Source: a virus. From it: DNA of 60,589 nucleotides. Location: positions 1 through 60,589 of the IMG/VR virus record IMGVR_UViG_3300008120_000040. The stretch is one strand, 5' to 3'. Under the pieces are notes generated by a model, which saw only the letters and a list, made by a program, of their open reading frames with translations, did not search any database and was not told where the DNA came from. Positions 1,313 to 50,125 of the stretch are shown here, piece by piece (the first letter of the stretch is position 1; each line of letters starts with the position of its first letter). Position numbers and translations under genes: made by a program.

Positions 1313-4102
1313 TTAATTCATTCTATTTAATTTGATTATTCTTGCATTATTATTGCTCATTGATGAACCTGATGTATTTGTAAAAGTAACAGTCCAAACA
1401 CCTGCGTTAGTACCTGATACACTAATTGAAAACCCATTAGATGTTATATTAGCATAATTAGCTCCATTCATACCACCATCAGCAGCAAAATGTATTATCC
1501 CTGTCGCCCAAGCCTGAATATTTACACCTCCAGGTGCATAAAATCCAATAACGTCAACCATATATGATGTTTCAAATTCATATAAAACTTGGTTAATTGT
1601 CATTGACCAAGACGCACCTGCACTTATTGTTCCACCAAATCCAGTAAATGAACTTACTAAATTTCCTCTTAAATCCAAAGTTCCATTTCTTGAATTACCT
1701 TGCAATCTCATTACATTATTTGTACCTGCATAAAATTCAAAATCATTTAAAGCTAATCCATAAAAATTACCACTTGTAGTTCCTATTTCTCCTTGATTTG
1801 TAGTATTGTAATACCAAGTTGCTTTTGCAGCATTTGATACATCATTTGATTGAATTGATAATTGACCTCTTGCTGAAGTGTTTGTACCTAAAACATGCAA
1901 GAATGTTGCAGGACTACTACCAGTTCCAATCCCAACATAACCATCACCATTAATAAAAAATCTTGTAGGTACGGAATATGCTGTACCTGCCGTTACTGAA
2001 GCATTAACACCTTGCCATCTTAACCCAGCCCCATCTATACTAAGCATTCCCATTCCATTTGCAGATGTATAGTTGGCGACTATTGTTCCTGCTGAACCAT
2101 ATTTTGCATTTGAACCAATATAGACATCTGTTGCGTTTCTATACATTATAGAACCACCACCAAAATTTAAATAATTATATCCTGCTAACAAACTTGTTTG
2201 TGGATTAAAATTTAAGGTTGTTTCTGTATTTGTGAATGTAGCATTACCATTTCCCTTTATATTGAATAGCGTTGTTGTTTCAGCAGCATTTTGAATCAAT
2301 AATGTATTATCACTTGAGGTTGTACCAGCACTTAATAAAATACCACTTGCTCCAGCTTTTATATATGTCTTAAATCCAGAATTAACATTAGTTCCAACAT
2401 TCAAATATCCACTTGTTGTACCAACATTAACCTCACCGCTAAAACTAGCACTTGTACCACTTAAAGCTCTTGAAACTAAAGTAACAGTAGTACCATTATC
2501 TGTAATTGCACTATCTCCTATTGTTCCAGCAGCAGTAAACTTAGGTATATTATTTATAGTACCTGAGCCACCTATTCCTGTAAACCCATTTACATTATAA
2601 GAGAACGCTATAACCTCTACCTTATCATTAACAGCACATGCTGTACCAAGTACGATAGAAGTACCATTTGTAGCTGTAAACTCAGAGTCATCTAGTTTAG
2701 AACCATTATAGAACACATCCACTAAACCAACAGAGTAAGCTACAGTAAATGTAGTCTGTGCTGCTGTTGCAGTGAATAAAGTCTTTTGTCTTAATCCATT
2801 ATTTACGATAAACTGAGAACCATATTTATAAACCTCTACAATCTGATTAGCTGTTAAAGCATCAGTTAAAACTACTGTTGTACCATTAGATGCTGTAAAA
2901 TCAACAGCGTTATCTAATTTAGAACCATTCACCCATACATCTACCATACCAACAGTATATCCGCCAGTAATTGTAAATGTAGTTTGTGATGCAGTAGAAG
3001 TAAACTTCTGTATAGTTCTTGTAGATGCAGATGTACCACCAGCCTCTATAGTCCAAGACCTATTAGCTGATAAATCATATGTTACTCCATTAATAGTTAA
3101 TGTTCTAGATGTTGGTACATACGCAGTTAAATCACTTGTTAAAGCTAATGTACCTGTTGCATTAGGAAAAGTAAATGAATTATTGCTTGCTGCAAAATAT
3201 AAATTATTAGTATAATTTGTAGATACAGGTCTTGTTATTATTGATATACCATTGCTATTTCCACCAATACCTGAATATAAATTACTTGTAATATTTGGCA
3301 TTACGCCATTCAAAAATCCAATACCAGAATTTAAAGTAATAGGGGAATCAAATGATTTTGCTCCTGTGATTGTCTGCGCTCCTGCCAATTTAACTACCAA
3401 AGAATCATCTGCAGGCGTAAATCCCAACCATCCTGCGATTGTTTTATTTACCCATAATGTTCCATTGTATCCTAAGATATGACCATTGATAGGAGTAGTA
3501 GTAATTAAATCAACATCGTGAATCTCTTTAAGCTCAAAACCATTCTGCACCTTTACAAAAATCTCTCCATTATTAGCATTTTTGCGTGTTACAACACCAA
3601 TAAATACTAAGTGAGCAGGAGCATAAGGTTTATTAAGTAAGCCATATATTAAATTTCCATCAGTACCTAGCCATACAGGGTCTCCAGCAGCTGCTGCTCC
3701 TGTAGTATCTAATCCAGTAAGCAAGCCTTCTGTAATAACATTGCCTATACCATTTATTGATAAGGTAGTTTCAATTAAACCCATTGTCTTAGAAGATGTA
3801 GCCTCTGATGCATTGGACGCTTTGCCAACAATCATATTTGTTCCATCCGCACCTGTAACATAAACAGCTTGTCCTTTTGTTAAAGCCACACCAGCTTTTA
3901 CAGCATGCTTTACAGTTGATGTAAAACCAGCAGGCAAAGAACCTATTCCTAAATCGGCATACAATTCATCTCCAGTTCTGAAGTCTACATTTCCAGAAGC
4001 ATCAAGCACTAGGAACTTGTCAGTATCTGTTCCAGCATTAGCTACCGTATTAAGGGTAGTAGTACCAGTTACGTTTATTCCACTTAAGAATTTATTAGCC
4101 AT
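1313..4102 (-). CDS. Large tail fibre protein (929 aa)
   Basis: 929 residues with almost no Cys and a strong bias to Gly, Thr, Asn, Ser and Val, as in fibrous phage adhesins. Residues about 60-200 form a conserved fibre head module (KAGVALTKGQAVYVTGADG, then VGVVTRKNANNGEIFVKV-like). The middle has two tandem modules of about 65 residues, each with QTTFT, then a VDV(W/F)xNGSKLD motif and a VEVxxxSY/G end. The C-terminal half carries NVGIG-type repeats. It starts three bases downstream of the previous fibre gene's stop and is probably translated from the same message. Receptor binding is inferred from family and position. Confidence 0.88.
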   Translation of the reverse strand: MANKFLSGINVTGTTTLNTVANAGTDTDKFLVLDASGNVDFRTGDELYADLGIGSLPAGFTSTVKHAVKAGVALTKGQAVYVTGADGTNMIVGKASNASEATSSKTMGLIETTLSINGIGNVITEGLLTGLDTTGAAAAGDPVWLGTDGNLIYGLLNKPYAPAHLVFIGVVTRKNANNGEIFVKVQNGFELKEIHDVDLITTTPINGHILGYNGTLWVNKTIAGWLGFTPADDSLVVKLAGAQTITGAKSFDSPITLNSGIGFLNGVMPNITSNLYSGIGGNSNGISIITRPVSTNYTNNLYFAASNNSFTFPNATGTLALTSDLTAYVPTSRTLTINGVTYDLSANRSWTIEAGGTSASTRTIQKFTSTASQTTFTITGGYTVGMVDVWVNGSKLDNAVDFTASNGTTVVLTDALTANQIVEVYKYGSQFIVNNGLRQKTLFTATAAQTTFTVAYSVGLVDVFYNGSKLDDSEFTATNGTSIVLGTACAVNDKVEVIAFSYNVNGFTGIGGSGTINNIPKFTAAGTIGDSAITDNGTTVTLVSRALSGTSASFSGEVNVGTTSGYLNVGTNVNSGFKTYIKAGASGILLSAGTTSSDNTLLIQNAAETTTLFNIKGNGNATFTNTETTLNFNPQTSLLAGYNYLNFGGGSIMYRNATDVYIGSNAKYGSAGTIVANYTSANGMGMLSIDGAGLRWQGVNASVTAGTAYSVPTRFFINGDGYVGIGTGSSPATFLHVLGTNTSARGQLSIQSNDVSNAAKATWYYNTTNQGEIGTTSGNFYGLALNDFEFYAGTNNVMRLQGNSRNGTLDLRGNLVSSFTGFGGTISAGASWSMTINQVLYEFETSYMVDVIGFYAPGGVNIQAWATGIIHFAADGGMNGANYANITSNGFSISVSGTNAGVWTVTFTNTSGSSMSNNNARIIKLNRMN

Positions 4103-4105
4103 TTA

Positions 4106-5200
4106 TTATTTTTTAATTACTACACGATACGCATTTGATGAAGGAGCTATTGCAAAAGTAACTGTAACTACCGTAGTAGAAGTCATTACAACGTCCGCAT
4201 AAACTTGTTCGTATGTAGCATTGTCATATATTAAAACCGTCACATCTCTTGTTCCTAAATTGTGTGTCAAAGCAAAGCTTGTTGCACTTGCATTACCTAC
4301 GTTTGCAGCAAATCCACCAACAGCGTTATTTAAGTAAGTAACTAACTTTAGAGGAGTTACATAAGCTGTATCGTTTGTTCCAGTATTAACTTCTGTTTGA
4401 GTAGCTATTCTAGATACACCTAAAACAGATTCTGTAGCTTGGTCTCTATTTACTTCTAATTGAATCCAGTCTGCAGCAGATGATGTAGATGCTGAATTTA
4501 CTTTAGCGATAATTACATCACCAATATTAAATGCAACCCCACCTGTTGTACCTGCTACTGAAACGTACCAGTAATCACCAGCTTTAGTTCCTGCTGTTGG
4601 CGTAGAACCTACTGGGAATGAACCACTAGATGCATCCCATGCTCCTTCTAAGTTACCTAGTCCTCCTACTGTTGAGTCTATGTAAGACTTAATTGAGCTT
4701 GATGTAGCTAGTGTTGTTGAGCTAGCAGATGCTAAGTCAGTAACGATTGTTACTTCAGCAACATTTGCAGAAGCTCCAGATACATTACCTAAAACTTTTA
4801 AGTTAGCAATCTGAGCTAATTTACCAAGTGTAACTTGATTATCACCTAGCTTTATAGTTGTAACAGCGCCATCATTCAATTTAGCTGTTGTAACACCTAA
4901 GTCTTTTACTCTTACAATATCGCTGTTAATCTCAATTGTAGCATTATCTACATTGACATCTAGTGTAACATCACCACCTGTGCCACCGCCAGTTAAACCA
5001 GCACCTGCAACTACAGAGGTAATATCTCCAGTTAAGTCAATCCAAGCTGTTCCGTTATAAAGGAATAACTTTTTAACACCATTAGTGGTATCAAAATAAA
5101 TCTGTCCTTGAACTGGACTAGATGGATTACCAGCATTGTTATGTACTGCGACATTTACTATCTGGTTTTTGTTTAGGTCAATGTTGGTAAGAAATTTCAT
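4106..5200 (-). CDS. Tail fibre protein (364 aa)
   Basis: 364 residues. The N-terminus (MKFLTNIDLNKNQIVNVAVH, then GQIYFDTTNGVKKLFLYNGTAWIDLTG) is the phage module often used to attach collar, head or tail fibres. A repeat-rich shaft follows (AGLTGGGTGGDVTLDV, then TTAKLNDGAVTTIKLGDNQV). The C-terminal domain (FALTHNLGTRDVTVLIYDN ... VTFAIAPSSNAYRVVI) is the common phage-fibre distal beta domain. It lies between another fibre-like gene and the 929-residue fibre with very short gaps. Which virion part it attaches to cannot be told from sequence alone. Confidence 0.85.
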   Translation of the reverse strand: MKFLTNIDLNKNQIVNVAVHNNAGNPSSPVQGQIYFDTTNGVKKLFLYNGTAWIDLTGDITSVVAGAGLTGGGTGGDVTLDVNVDNATIEINSDIVRVKDLGVTTAKLNDGAVTTIKLGDNQVTLGKLAQIANLKVLGNVSGASANVAEVTIVTDLASASSTTLATSSSIKSYIDSTVGGLGNLEGAWDASSGSFPVGSTPTAGTKAGDYWYVSVAGTTGGVAFNIGDVIIAKVNSASTSSAADWIQLEVNRDQATESVLGVSRIATQTEVNTGTNDTAYVTPLKLVTYLNNAVGGFAANVGNASATSFALTHNLGTRDVTVLIYDNATYEQVYADVVMTSTTVVTVTFAIAPSSNAYRVVIKK

Positions 5201-15748: not shown

Positions 15749-18700
15749 TTATCTATTGTTTAAAGGTTGTAATATTCCTAATTCTGCGTAATACAAATCT
15801 ACTAAGTTTTGCGGATTTGTAGCTTTTAAGTTCAATTCAAGCCATGAACCCCTCAGCACCTTGCCCTCATATAATCCACCAGTGCTGTTTATATCTCTTT
15901 TAAAAGACGCATGATATTTATCATCTTTCATCTTAAAGTCGGTACTTAACAGCTTTGAATTGTTATTCATATTGGTAACAATGTCGCTAGTTAAAGGGGC
16001 TACCCATGTTGTGTTACCCAATGTAGTAAGCGTATTATAATGCTTTTTTATATTAGGAGATTGATTAAATACAAGCTTTATAGAAGGAGTTTGCTGAACT
16101 CCATAAAAGTTAGCATAGGCTGTTGTATTATTATGAACCCATAATTCTCCAGATTTCCATGATATAATTACATTGCCAGCAACAGTAATCCATTCTGGGT
16201 TGTAGTCATAAAAAGCGCTATATGCATTCCTAGGCTCAGAGAATCCAAATGTATAATCAGGAATAGTGCTTCCACTTCCTTGCATAACGGTTATAAACTC
16301 TTCTTCAAATGCATCATAAACACCTAATACTTTAGCATATCCGCCATTACCAAACTTATCTGCATTATTTGTTTTTTGATACTTTGTAATCTTATCTGTA
16401 AGGAAAAAGTGAGCTTTATATGTTTCACTTATAGAAGTAATGCCGTCTGTAGATAATCTTACTTGACATCCCAAAACAGGGTCTGTAAAGTAATCTGCAT
16501 TTGCAGAAGAAGCTAAAGAACAGAATTGCTCTCCTATACCATATTCTCCTTGATAATATTGTATCTTATTTAATACCTGTGTACTTTGAGAAACAACACT
16601 TCCGCCATCTGCTGTTTGTAATACGTTTTGGTCTATAGGAACTATCCCGCATGCTCTGCTTTGGAATACTCTTAATTGTTGACCTCTTGACTTAAGTCTT
16701 TGAATATCTCCTTTTTGTCTATCGTATTCATCAATGTTTTCAGCAGCAAATCTATTTGTATTATTGATATTAGTTCCTTGCTCGTATTCCCCAGAGTATC
16801 TTATAAGAGTTGGGTAGTATGTTTCTTTAGCGTAGTCATCTATAACAAAAGTCCTACCATTGCCATCCACTTTAGAAGCGAACTTATCTGAAACAGACAT
16901 ATCTATAACATAGTGATTATTGCTTCGTTGTCTATTATATACATCTCCTCTATAAAAAGTATATTTAGCTGGTCTAACTCCAGCTCCTATTATTTGATTC
17001 TGTCCAGACCCTTCATGTACAAGATTACTATTAGCATCTGTTATAATAGAGTAATTTTCTCCAAACTCATAATAAAATTGGTCGTTTATATTTGAGTTAT
17101 AAAAAGGAGTATATGGCTCTATATAATAAGTGCTAGTTGATGTATCCCAACTTGACATTAAATCAGCAGAATATTGAATTTTTAACCAATATCCAACCGC
17201 TGAATCTCCTTCTGGACTAACAGTCAATACATCTAGTATTGGTAAGTCTTTTAAAAGCGTTGTATTTGAATTCAAAATACCATATATCTTCACACGGTCT
17301 CCTTTTACATATTGATATGCTGGGTATCCGTTTTTATTTGCGTTGTATGTACTTATATCCATATAGGCAAAATCAGCATCTTTATGAAGCTTATTTGTAG
17401 TAGCCCATACAAAGTTAGATACTGTTAAATTTTTAGTTCTTACAAATGAGAATGTCTTAGCCCAAGATGGAGGTGCATGATTAATTTCAAAATTAATATT
17501 AGGATTATTAATAGTAGCTATACCTATATTAGCAGATGATAATTGAGGAGTGATAACCTTCATTGAATCGTTAGTAACAACTCCATTTGTAATACCAAAT
17601 TCATCAAAATAAACAATTCCAAACTTATAAGTTGAACTATGTTTATATGCCGATATATTTACATCTGTAGGTGTTGAAGTTGAAGTTAAGTCAACATAAT
17701 AAGTACCTACAACATCCCATGTTATTTTAATTGCTCCAGGTAAATAAGTTATTAATATACCATTAGTTCCGCTATCTGTCGCTGTTAATTTAGTTTCTGC
17801 ATCTATTACTGCTTTAAAGTAATTCTTTATATCAGTTAAAGTATTTCCAGAAGAAACTGTATATGAATAACCATATGTTTCTTCAAAAGTTTCTGCAGGG
17901 GAAACATTATCATTTGTAACTGTAACAGTTAAATTCAAATCAATTTTATCGCCTGTAGCAGGAACTCCACTAAATGTATACTTCCAGTTTCTTCCAAAGT
18001 CCTGAGCTAATACATCAAGTAATGCAGTAGGAGCTACTTGGTCAACCGTATTAGATACAGATAATGTTCCGCTAAATGTATTTCCTTCAAGTATACCACC
18101 ATAAGCAAGTATATTCCCATTCAATAACTCTTGAGTATTAGCCTTCTTAGGCACATAGTCAAAAAGCTGTAAACTTTCAGACTGACTTGCAAATGGATAC
18201 GTTCCATCATTATAAAAATTATACACTCTTGTTGCATCACTAGGCATATCCAATTTAATCTTGTCTAGCACGGCAACTATCATTCTATCTGAAAAAGTAA
18301 CTCCTATAGTTTCTCTTGCAGATATTTCTATTTTAGAACAGTCTAATGAGCCAGTGTTATATGTAACGCTAATTACATTGTTTTTTGTAGGGTCTGCATC
18401 AACAGTTAAATCACTAATATTTAATGGAGCAAATAATTTACTCCAAGGACTCCATGTAGATTTAGTATTATCCTTGTATACCCATCTATAACTAAACTGA
18501 AATAGTTTACTTCTTAAGTTGTTTGCTGCATCTGGACTATCTCCATATTGACATACAGGTGCTTTTGTTGGCATTTTTCTAGCAACCGTTAAGTAATCCT
18601 TCTTCCATGCTGTACCATAAGTTTTCCCAGAAATAGTAGCTTCTCTGATATTAAGCTTCATAGGTCTGTTTTTTCTATCAGTCCAATGAAGTACATCTCC

Positions 18701-38050: not shown

Positions 38051-38058
38051 TATGTTTG
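38051..38058 (+). promoter_or_regulatory. TATGTTTG -7 box, probable early promoter
   Basis: Matches TAnnTTTG. It is the last such box on the plus strand before the early genes. No good TTTG -33 element lies at the usual 19-21 base distance (a TTTG at 38035 is too close). A start near 38065 would give a leader of about 400 nt. Confidence 0.45.
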
Positions 38059-38064
38059 CACTTT

Positions 38065-38391
38065 TACAATGTCAACGGGGGACACCCCAACGACGCAGTT
38101 CTTTACAAGGTGGGTCACTCTAGGTAATCATTCCTAGGTAAGCACGACCCGATATCGCGAAAGGTTAGACAATCTGACTAAGTAGCACGAAAGGATATCC
38201 GCTAGGCCAACAAGCACACCAACAACCAACACACACCATCACCGCGCTGAGGGTATAAAAAGAGAGCGGGTAAGTAGCTACCACCTACATAGGTAGCGAT
38301 GACCTTACAGCAACGGAATCTGATTCTAGAATAATAGAATGGACGAGCTGAGATTGTCTCAGTTGCAGTCGGTTTACTAGGACGATAGCCC
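38065..38391 (+). ncRNA. Structured 5' leader upstream of early genes
   Basis: Several strong local hairpins follow one another: GGGTC/GACCC closing CTAGG/CCTAG (38112-38150 region), GTTAGA/TCTGAC near 38165-38180, GCTACC/GGTAGC near 38277-38298, and CTGAGA-TTG-TCTCAG near 38350. CGAAAGG occurs twice between two GATATC words. The absence of an ORF and this density of stems suggest a folded RNA. It leads directly into the type III hammerhead. No known riboswitch class is recognised. Confidence 0.5.
38120..38137. repeat. CTAGG...CCTAG inverted pair, copy 3
   Basis: CTAGG (38120-38124) and CCTAG (38133-38137) enclose 8 bases and lie inside a GGGTC/GACCC pair, so this copy would be the apical stem of a leader RNA hairpin. 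Confidence 0.5.
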
Positions 38392-38446
38392 AATGTACGC
38401 GGTTAAAAAAGCACCGCGCTGACGAGTCACAGAATGACGAAACATT
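38392..38446 (+). ncRNA. Type III hammerhead ribozyme
   Basis: All core parts are present in order: stem III AATGT (38392-38396), cleavage triplet GTA with predicted cut after 38397, stem I CGCGGT/ACCGCG (38398-38403 with 38413-38418), CTGACGA (38419-38425), stem II GTCA/TGAC (38426-38429 with 38435-38438), GAAA (38439-38442), and closing CATT (38443-38446). With the last A of GAAA, that pairs 5 bases of stem III. Every stem is fully Watson-Crick. It lies 20 bases before the first early ATG. Cleavage would leave the early mRNA with two 5' hairpins. Activity is inferred from the complete core. Confidence 0.88.
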
Positions 38447-38465
38447 AACAAAAAACCTATGTATT

Positions 38466-38699
38466 ATGAACAAAGATTACATCGTATCAATTACCAAGAC
38501 AAGCCATTTTAACCTAGATTACAAGCAATTAGCTATTGCCTACGAGCTTAGCACATGGGATGAAGCATGCGAGAAGTACAAAGAATGCGTCGCAGATGAA
38601 TCCATGCACGTTTCTACCTTAAACAGCGTGAGGTCAAGCGTAACTATCACGATGGCGCACAAGGACAGCATCCAATATAGAGTAAACATATACAACTAA
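38466..38699 (+). CDS. First early gene, unknown function (77 aa)
   Basis: 77 residues (MNKDYIVSITKTSHFNLDYK ... IQYRVNIYN), soluble, with no recognised domain. It is the first ORF after the control region and lies between two hammerhead ribozymes, so its message may be cut out of the long early transcript together with the next gene. The A-rich leader AACAAAAAACCTATGTATT is typical of non-Shine-Dalgarno starts. Confidence 0.75.
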   Translation: MNKDYIVSITKTSHFNLDYKQLAIAYELSTWDEACEKYKECVADESMHVSTLNSVRSSVTITMAHKDSIQYRVNIYN

Positions 38700-38710
38700 A
38701 ATTTAATACC

Positions 38711-38953
38711 ATGGAACAATTACTAAGCAACAAGTATGAGCAACTATGCGACACGCTGTCAATAGTTGAGGAATTCGTAGGTGAACTTGCAAGCGCACGC
38801 ACCCAAATGGATATAGCTGTTAAACTATGTCCATACGTAGACAATTTAAAAAACCTAGTAAGAGACAATCCTAGTATTGTACGTGAGACCATTGCGCACG
38901 ACTACATAGGATTAAGAGACGAGGACGAGGATTTTTTACCAAGACTAGCATAA
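38711..38953 (+). CDS. Early small acidic protein (80 aa)
   Basis: 80 residues, acidic and helical (LSNKYEQLCDTLSIVEEFVG, then DYIGLRDEDEDFLPRLA). It lies 11 bases after the first early gene, and its stop is one base before the stem I of the type I hammerhead, so both genes share the ribozyme-bounded segment. The function is unknown. First-expressed phage genes of this size often encode host-takeover proteins; nothing in the sequence proves that here. Confidence 0.75.
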   Translation: MEQLLSNKYEQLCDTLSIVEEFVGELASARTQMDIAVKLCPYVDNLKNLVRDNPSIVRETIAHDYIGLRDEDEDFLPRLA

Positions 38954-38954
38954 A

Positions 38955-39010
38955 GGTTAACTGACGAGCTGTTTATCAGCGAAATGCCCGCCCCCACGGG
39001 TATCTTAACC
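38955..39010 (+). ncRNA. Type I hammerhead ribozyme
   Basis: Core in order: stem I GGTTAA (38955-38960), CTGACGA (38961-38967), stem II GCTG/CAGC (38968-38971 with 38977-38980), GAAA (38981-38984), stem III TGCCCG/CGGGTA plus the core A-U pair (38984-38990 with 38997-39003, one G-U), cleavage triplet ATC ending at 39004, and stem I partner TTAACC (39005-39010). The predicted cut is between 39004 and 39005, leaving a 22-nt A-rich leader on the next gene. All conserved core residues are present. Confidence 0.9.
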
Positions 39011-39026
39011 AAAAAAAATAAATGTT

Positions 39027-39950
39027 ATGAGAAATCAAACAGCACCAAAAGTATTAGACGAGACATCAAGATTCAGCGCAAAGACAACAGCAAGCGCGGA
39101 GCGTAGTATTGACACAATCCTAGAGAACAGCAGACAAGACAATGTCTTTGTTGAATCCTCAATTGTGAGTTTATCTGAAATCACAGGTATGGCCACACGT
39201 AAAGGACTAGAGCAAGCAGTTATCTGCGAGAACGAAATCGTTAACGTGGTATCATCTAGCTACGGACACCTAGACAATCGTAAATTCTACTACGAAGCAG
39301 AATCAAAGTTGATTGACGCTGACATCTACTACAAACAGCGCTCAGTGAACAAGGATAACCGCTCATTCGCAGTGGATTATGTCCTAGCAGATGACCGCTA
39401 CAAGATTGAAATCAAGGGTGAACAAGACATCCTACGTCCAATGTTACGATTCGTTAATAGCTACGATGGTAGCTGTAAGACTAGCGGGTCTATCGGATTT
39501 TGGCGCAAGGTATGTGACAATGGTTTACATGTAGCTAACTTCAACATCGGGTTTAGTGTTAAGCACCGCGGTAATATTGCTGAGGTAGTTATGCCTAAGC
39601 TAGACGAGATTGTAGGTCAGTTTATGGACAACGAATTCTTTACCCTTAAGCGTAAGTTTGAGGTGCTTGCAGAGCGTCCCGTTACTAATGTAGAAGACTA
39701 CGTAAAAGCTACAGCTAAGACCCTAGGGTTATTCAAATACGAGGCATCGGATAAGAATCCCGAGCCTAGCGCTAACGCACGTTTTGTCTTTGACGTAATC
39801 AACCGCGAGTCTAAGCTATTGAATACACGTCCTAACCAATGGATTGTATACAACGCATTCAACGAGCTGTTACATGGCAAGTTAAAGAAGACGTTTGACC
39901 AACAAAAGAATCTTGACGAGCAATTGTTCGAGACAATCTATGCAGGCTAA
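39027..39950 (+). CDS. DUF932-family phage/plasmid protein (307 aa)
   Basis: 307 residues. The middle part (YKIEIKGEQDILRPMLRFVN, SYDGSCKTSGSIGFWRKVC, DNGLHVANF) is the hallmark of the DUF932 / phage-plasmid-like family, whose biochemical role is unsettled. It is preceded by the type I hammerhead cut site 22 bases upstream and followed by a strong terminator, so it may be produced as a separate, probably abundant message. Codon use is less A/T-biased than neighbours (GCA, CGC, CGT present), consistent with high expression. Confidence 0.8.
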   Translation: MRNQTAPKVLDETSRFSAKTTASAERSIDTILENSRQDNVFVESSIVSLSEITGMATRKGLEQAVICENEIVNVVSSSYGHLDNRKFYYEAESKLIDADIYYKQRSVNKDNRSFAVDYVLADDRYKIEIKGEQDILRPMLRFVNSYDGSCKTSGSIGFWRKVCDNGLHVANFNIGFSVKHRGNIAEVVMPKLDEIVGQFMDNEFFTLKRKFEVLAERPVTNVEDYVKATAKTLGLFKYEASDKNPEPSANARFVFDVINRESKLLNTRPNQWIVYNAFNELLHGKLKKTFDQQKNLDEQLFETIYAG

Positions 39951-39962
39951 TACATCACCACG

Positions 39963-39989
39963 GGAGGGGCGCAATGCTCCTCCTTTTTT
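39963..39989 (+). terminator. Rho-independent terminator after the DUF932 gene
   Basis: GGAGGGGC (39963-39970) pairs with GCTCCTCC (39976-39983) around GCAAT, followed by six T residues. It ends the first early unit. Confidence 0.88.
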
Positions 39990-39992
39990 ATA

Positions 39993-49753: not shown

Positions 49754-49763
49754 TTTAACGCGA

Positions 49764-49812
49764 CATAGGTAACCCCCACCCCCGCTATGTTTCTACATTG
49801 GCGGGTTATTTT
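49764..49812 (+). terminator. Terminator-like structure
   Basis: CCCGC (49781-49785) can pair with GCGGG (49801-49805), followed by TTATTTTTAAATTTTT. CATAG/CTATG (49764-49768 with 49785-49789) is an alternative pairing. The long loop makes it less certain than the other terminators. Confidence 0.45.
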
Positions 49813-49840
49813 TAAATTTTTAACCAATAAATAATATAAC

Positions 49841-50125
49841 ATGCAACAAGAAACACCAAAGAGAACGTCGTATGGCGCTTGGAAAAAGCAAACCCCAAGA
49901 GGGGAAGTAATTAACTTCACATTAAATGGACAGAGGTATAACATGTGGTTTAACTCAAAGAAAACTCAAGAGAAGCAACCAGATTATAATATCTATGAAG
50001 ATAACTACGTAAGCCCTAGCCAAGTAGTGCAAACGCAAGATGTACAAGCTCAAGTTGTACAATCACAACCTGTGCAACAGCCTCAGTCTGGATTCGTTCC
50101 AGAAAGCAACGGATTGAATTTCTAG
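49841..50125 (+). CDS. Small Gln-rich protein, possible ssDNA-binding-like (94 aa)
   Basis: 94 residues. Residues 1-60 (SYGAWKKQTPRGEVINFTLN, GQRYNMWFNSKKTQEKQPDY) form a short beta-type module with basic and aromatic residues, seen in small replication-region proteins. The tail is a Gln/Val repeat (VVQTQDVQAQVVQSQPVQQP). It lies alone between two terminators, just before the primase-helicase. A single-strand-binding role is a guess. Confidence 0.65.
   Translation: MQQETPKRTSYGAWKKQTPRGEVINFTLNGQRYNMWFNSKKTQEKQPDYNIYEDNYVSPSQVVQTQDVQAQVVQSQPVQQPQSGFVPESNGLNF

Follow-up and report, generated by a model that had tools for sequence, protein, structure and literature searches.

A type III and a type I hammerhead ribozyme flank two early genes of a phage and probably divide one transcript into separate messages

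A type III and a type I hammerhead ribozyme lie on the plus strand at positions 38392-38446 and 38955-39010 of the virus record IMGVR_UViG_3300008120_000040 from IMG/VR (the window, i.e. the whole stretch of 60,589 nucleotides analysed). They bracket two small genes ahead of a DUF932 gene, and are probably active, cis-cleaving elements that turn one early transcript into three RNAs. Both elements, with full cores and on the same strand, were found where the original prediction had placed them, and the layout to which they belong, with a type III hammerhead first and type I hammerheads between genes, is, judged by sequence, common to many environmental phages.

Both elements have the exact hammerhead core (C3-U4-G5-A6-N7-G8-A9 ... 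G12-A13-A14-A15.1, with an N-U-H triplet) and three stems round it, including the 10.1-11.1, 1.1-2.1 and A15.1-U16.1 pairs, with zero mispairs. Read from the sequence, the type III hammerhead has the layout AAUGU-A↓CGCGGU-UAAAAAAGC-ACCGCG-CUGACGA-GUCA-CAGAA-UGAC-GAAA-CAUU (the arrow marks the predicted cut, 38397/38398), with stems I (CGCGGU/ACCGCG), II (GUCA/UGAC) and III (AAUGU/ACAUU) of 6, 4 and 5 bp and the triplet GUA. The type I hammerhead has the layout GGUUAA-CUGACGA-GCUG-UUUAU-CAGC-GAAA-UGCCCG-CCCCCA-CGGGUA-UC↓UUAACC (predicted cut 39004/39005), with stems I (GGUUAA/UUAACC), II (GCUG/CAGC) and III of 6, 4 and 7 bp and the triplet AUC. Support from the Rfam models, to which the original prediction had looked, is divided. 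In fold and core the type III element agrees with Rfam Hammerhead_3 (RF00008), and that family matches it with 41.0 bits (E 3.1e-7), under the curated gathering score of 48.5; it differs from the consensus by a longer loop I and a shorter loop II; at 38955-39010, the Rfam type I, II, HH9 and HH10 families gave zero hammerhead matches up to E 10. The type I element is recognised, with 59.8 bits (E 8.8e-12), by a covariance model (R1) constructed for this work from 44 further type I hammerheads of phages, the window and its closest relative being left out. A strict core-and-stem descriptor found just these two elements on both strands of the 60.6 kb, and in 18.2 Mb of matched random sequence it gave four matches, all weaker, which excludes a chance origin of the pair. 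A relaxed descriptor revealed no further hammerhead in the window. Stem III of the type III element is short and AU-rich, with a computed pairing probability of 0.06-0.27 as against 0.66-0.98 for the other stems; according to Perreault et al. 2011 (PMC3088659), a weak stem III is common. The proposed cuts after 38397 and 39004 add up in their coordinates: the predicted middle product (38398-39004) is 607 nt long and bicistronic, with a ribozyme hairpin at either end, and the predicted leader of the DUF932 message (39005-39026), consisting of UUAACC and an A-rich stretch, is 22 nt.

The pair is embedded in what looks like a complete transcription unit, extending from a Bacteroidota-type -7 promoter box, TATGTTTG (TAnnTTTG; plus strand, 38051-38058, read from the sequence), to an intrinsic terminator-like hairpin followed by a T run (plus strand, 39962-39990). 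The box motif is present also in the leaders of three related loci (L001, L005 and L007), and no convincing -33 TTG was found for it in the window. The terminator is weak on its own, as it is one of two such matches in the region where 2.1 are expected in shuffles, i.e. there is no excess. Between the box and the type III cut lies a conserved, structured 5' leader RNA (plus strand, 38060-38397, the start being approximate and the 3' end being the predicted cut), matched by nhmmer in seven other loci: L001 (4012-4367), L004 (4050-4347), L005 (2505-2850), L006 (305-691), L007 (398-728) and, on the minus strand, L201 (4758-5094) and L207 (11837-12173). It measures about 300-340 nt across loci (about 338 in the window) and forms several covarying helices with changes on both sides; in L005-L007, L201 and L207 no hammerhead is recognised, and UUAACC and an AUG follow it directly. 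An Rfam identity for the leader was considered and rejected, with nothing at E<=2 beyond the hammerhead and weak matches at E 2.4 or worse. The leader opens with a GGGGG hairpin, and C-runs (CCCCCA and similar) are common to the stem III loops of the window type I element and of the DUF932-linked type I elements of L003-L008, so that a long-range pairing between the two is possible from the sequences. The genes themselves, all on the plus strand, are placed as had been claimed: an ORF of 77 codons (38466-38699), the first gene of the 607-nt product, which matched no Pfam or PHROG family; an ORF of 80 codons (38711-38953), whose stop codon ends one base ahead of the type I hammerhead; and the DUF932 gene of 307 aa (39027-39950; PF06067, E 1e-15; phrog_21518, E 1.3e-105). 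The original prediction captured the ribozyme pair; it did not mention the structured RNA ahead of it (about 38060-38397) or the putative terminator downstream of DUF932, nor how much more widely such hammerheads occur, as described below. The host is probably flavobacterial, since the terminase large subunit (TerL) of the window matches mostly Flavobacterium and Cellulophaga phages, at about 29-31% identity among the matches listed.

Conservation in relatives, which the original prediction had named as a check, holds for the closest locus and breaks down in others. L001, with a 98% identical DUF932 protein, keeps both hammerheads, and stem II of its type III element carries a paired double change relative to the window (GUCA/UGAC to GUCG/CGAC). 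The type III element is also kept in L002-L004, at 85-86% identity, and L002 has lost the type I hammerhead ahead of DUF932. At the site of that loss (L002, 4940-4990), UUAACC and a GGGGG-UUAACAG-CCCCC hairpin are still there. A second site in the window (49760-49841) resembles it, with a hairpin with a CCCCCACCCCC loop followed by UUAACCAA 21 nt ahead of an AUG and no hammerhead core. Upstream of DUF932 in L003-L008 is a variant type I hammerhead with an extra U after core A9 (core CUGANGA-U-GG), of which 68 distinct examples occur in the loci examined; its positions are 4919-4986 (L003), 4917-4984 (L004), 4877-4944 (L005), 2854-2926 (L006), 2121-2190 (L007) and 3292-3361 (L008). Whole arrays are seen in L007, with five type I matches, and in L008, where one type III hammerhead is followed by five type I matches, all in the same direction. 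By their sequences, hammerheads are dispensable in places, type I being absent from L002 and a recognised type III from L005-L007, in which the leader is present. No hammerhead was found in L011 and L012, the loci of Flavobacterium psychrophilum phage DUF932 relatives at 55% identity. The recurring UUAACC was also considered as a general ribosome-binding signal and rejected: the window holds 19 plus-strand copies, and because most of these do not precede start codons, pairing in stem I accounts better for its conservation, with L002 and L005-L007 as exceptions.

The type I form extends far beyond these relatives. IMG/VR was scanned with a pattern in which only the core and the loop II sequence UAAAU were fixed, stems I and III being left free, and 120 of the 124 distinct matches listed were complete type I hammerheads, compared with nine type I calls in 2480 trials (about 0.4%) when the flanks were shuffled. 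Among these 120, 117 have a stem I of 6 bp with a closing C-G pair, and every one has A.A directly after stem I. When the loop CAGAA was used instead, 71 of 87 matches listed were type III and none type I. In the 44-sequence type I alignment, both partners vary in 13 of the 15 base pairs and the covariation score is 0.678, against 0.134 for shuffled and at most 0.090 for slid alignments; as the 44 were picked with a descriptor that requires pairing, the UAAAU scan is the cleaner test. Altogether at least 482 distinct hammerheads were found in at least 208 DNA clusters, which are based on DNA similarity and not fully independent in descent; the frequencies are not estimates of prevalence, since they come from pattern scans and count matches listed. 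The invariant A.A after stem I, together with recurring loop II sequences, suggests that stems I and II may touch through a loop-loop or pseudoknot interaction. At gathering scores, Rfam reported zero hammerheads in the window and 14 loci (15 sequences, most of the loci having been selected for their hammerheads), and annotation pipelines relying on such cutoffs would therefore overlook this hammerhead form. No cultured near-relatives were found for the hammerhead array of L087, and the best rows for L312 against cultured phages were mostly tRNA matches. A loose-pattern scan of genome contigs returned 24 matches, about the number estimated by chance, and no host claim is therefore made from it.

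Position and order of the hammerheads follow rules, here counted among the matches listed and not over full collections. Of 385 type I hammerheads, 371 have an ORF start codon at most 80 nt past the cut, compared with 42%, and a broad spread, for random positions; the distance from cut to AUG has a median of 23 nt (interquartile range 20-27), and its distribution drops off sharply below 18. The corresponding median is 60 nt for type III, where the ribozyme body stays on the downstream message. The nearest upstream ORF ends a median of 3 nt from a type I hammerhead versus 534 nt from a type III. Searching the 700 nt upstream of each element for a Bacteroidota promoter, TTG-N17-21-TAnnTTTG, gave a match for 25 of 79 type III hammerheads, where 3.8 would be expected, and for 25 of 350 type I hammerheads, against an expectation of 11.8. 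Where hammerheads of the two types are neighbours, the type III comes first in 40 pairs and second in three, and when the pairs are grouped by DNA similarity all 12 clusters contain the III-then-I order, two of them also the reverse. A Shine-Dalgarno-like motif is absent from the leader in 211 of 242 type I hammerheads with the stem I strand GGUUAA, versus 63 of 131 other type I hammerheads.

The same pair is carried by cultured phages. In Flavobacterium phage elemoE 6-9C (NC_055854), a type III hammerhead sits behind the promoter TTG-N19-TATATTTG and 62 nt ahead of the gp59 start, and a type I hammerhead (minus strand, 16302-16363, 54.9 bits) lies between gp64 and gp66, its predicted cut being 28 nt ahead of the gp66 AUG. 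The cuts predicted for the two elements fall near minus-strand record positions 18146 (type III) and 16310 (type I). Each of the 68 elemo records matched contains the type III region with at least 99% identity. The annotated plus-strand CDS gp65 of elemoE (locus L277, 16289-16396) overlaps the type I hammerhead on the opposite strand and is probably no gene.

Processing of an early polycistronic transcript, as originally proposed, is the best reading of the structures, covariation, placement and order found. The transcript would run from the promoter near 38051 to the terminator near 39985 and be divided into the structured leader of about 338 nt, the 607-nt message encoding the two small ORFs (77 and 80 codons), and a DUF932 message whose 5' end lies 22 nt ahead of the AUG. 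Either cut would leave the ribozyme body on the middle 607-nt RNA. Type III cleavage would place the stem I hairpin flush at the 5' end of the downstream RNA, and type I cleavage would place the stem III hairpin at the 3' end of the upstream RNA, one nucleotide from the 2',3'-cyclic phosphate. Messages downstream of a type I site would start at a 5'-OH, with a bare leader of just sufficient length for a ribosome to bind. In a III-I-I array the first message would therefore be armoured at both ends, and each later one would begin with a short 5'-OH leader and be armoured at its 3' end. Such ends resist 5'-monophosphate-dependent and 3' exonuclease decay, a property that we infer for the phage RNAs here. 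In-cell cleavage and its consequences for the mRNA are likewise inferred. The likely purpose would be to uncouple the stability and translation of adjacent early genes, and also to shield the RNA ends from host decay pathways that favour 5' monophosphates or unprotected 3' ends. We hold it to be an evenly balanced possibility that this amounts to a general phage RNA-processing code, clearest in Bacteroidota phages, in which type III hammerheads trim the leader and type I hammerheads of the 6-bp and A.A form, set between cistrons at a fixed distance before the AUG, yield 5'-OH messages with ribozyme-capped 3' ends without any protein.

The leader is conserved and multi-helical with covarying pairs, and a type III hammerhead is usually found at the end of a long non-coding leader behind a promoter. 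The leader may be the main product, an early regulatory RNA whose 3' end is matured by the type III hammerhead, with the separation of mRNAs as a by-product. This is rather unlikely, however, as many intergenic type I sites would be left unexplained, and as the leader of L005-L007 leads, with no recognisable type III element, directly into UUAACC and the AUG. Hammerheads might also be mobile or parasitic leftovers without a role in phage expression, as their presence differs among close relatives and, according to PMC3088659, those of many eukaryotes ride on repeats. The strong covariation, tight start-codon spacing, fixed order and compensatory double change in L001 argue instead for selection at the site, and make such an origin improbable.

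Least probable of all is the circular bicistronic mRNA that the original prediction held conceivable, in which the 607-nt RNA is joined end to end by a host RtcB-like ligase or by reversal of the ribozyme reaction. RNAs with 5'-OH and 2',3'-cyclic phosphate ends are substrates of RtcB, and the 607-nt RNA is predicted to have such ends. However, searches of the window for RtcB and RNA_ligase (PF09414) genes gave no match, and the 3' end GGGUAUC is a poor partner for the type III 3' strand ACAUU, so that circularisation driven by the ribozymes would be without visible design. Further, single cuts in many arrays merely split neighbours and define no circle, and Perreault et al. 2011 (PMC3088659) report that circular or spliced products of prophage clusters were considered and sought, none being detected.

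Novelty for the pair as such, as first claimed, has to be given up, since Perreault et al. 2011 (PMC3088659) already describe hammerhead clusters around single genes or short gene blocks of prophages, suggest the processing of phage transcripts to operon- or gene-length mRNAs, and report cleavage of three clusters in vitro and of one in E. coli. Like those clusters, the arrangement here has at least two same-strand hammerheads of mixed type flanking genes of one transcript. Unlike that account, as far as its consulted sections go, it has the III-first/I-between order, a fixed cut-to-AUG spacing and the 6-bp and A.A form, and its carriers are mostly environmental contigs, along with cultured Flavobacterium podoviruses. 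The same source describes HHphage of the haloarchaeal viruses HF1/HF2, a hammerhead lying 13 nt ahead of the start codon of an early gene, with a mapped 5' end at most three nucleotides from the cleavage site; this is a variant hammerhead at a single site in an archaeal virus and forms no array. Theta (HDV-like) ribozymes of gut phages (PMC10879173) likewise self-cleave at fixed places of transcripts, but belong to another class and are tied to tRNAs and recoding, whereas the hammerheads here are tied to the starts of protein genes.

Within the literature searched, which was mostly non-subscription, the III-first/I-between order and the measured cut-to-AUG spacing look new. The same applies to the 6-bp and A.A form, together with the variant carrying an inserted U, to the failure of the Rfam cutoffs to report these elements, and to the pair in a cultured phage. 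RiboJ, engineered from a plant satellite RNA, and related synthetic insulators place a hammerhead in the 5' UTR, where it shortens the leader and a 5' hairpin remains. The arrangement described here differs in being natural and combined with type I cutters between genes, and the phage III/I layout is in this respect a natural counterpart of the ribozyme insulators of synthetic biology. As the elemo phages are cultured, have a known host (Flavobacterium sp. BAL314) and carry the same III/I pair, a direct test is practical. The purpose of phage hammerheads has been a question since 2011, and the positional rule offers a specific, testable answer, namely that the ribozymes may serve to make monocistronic messages.
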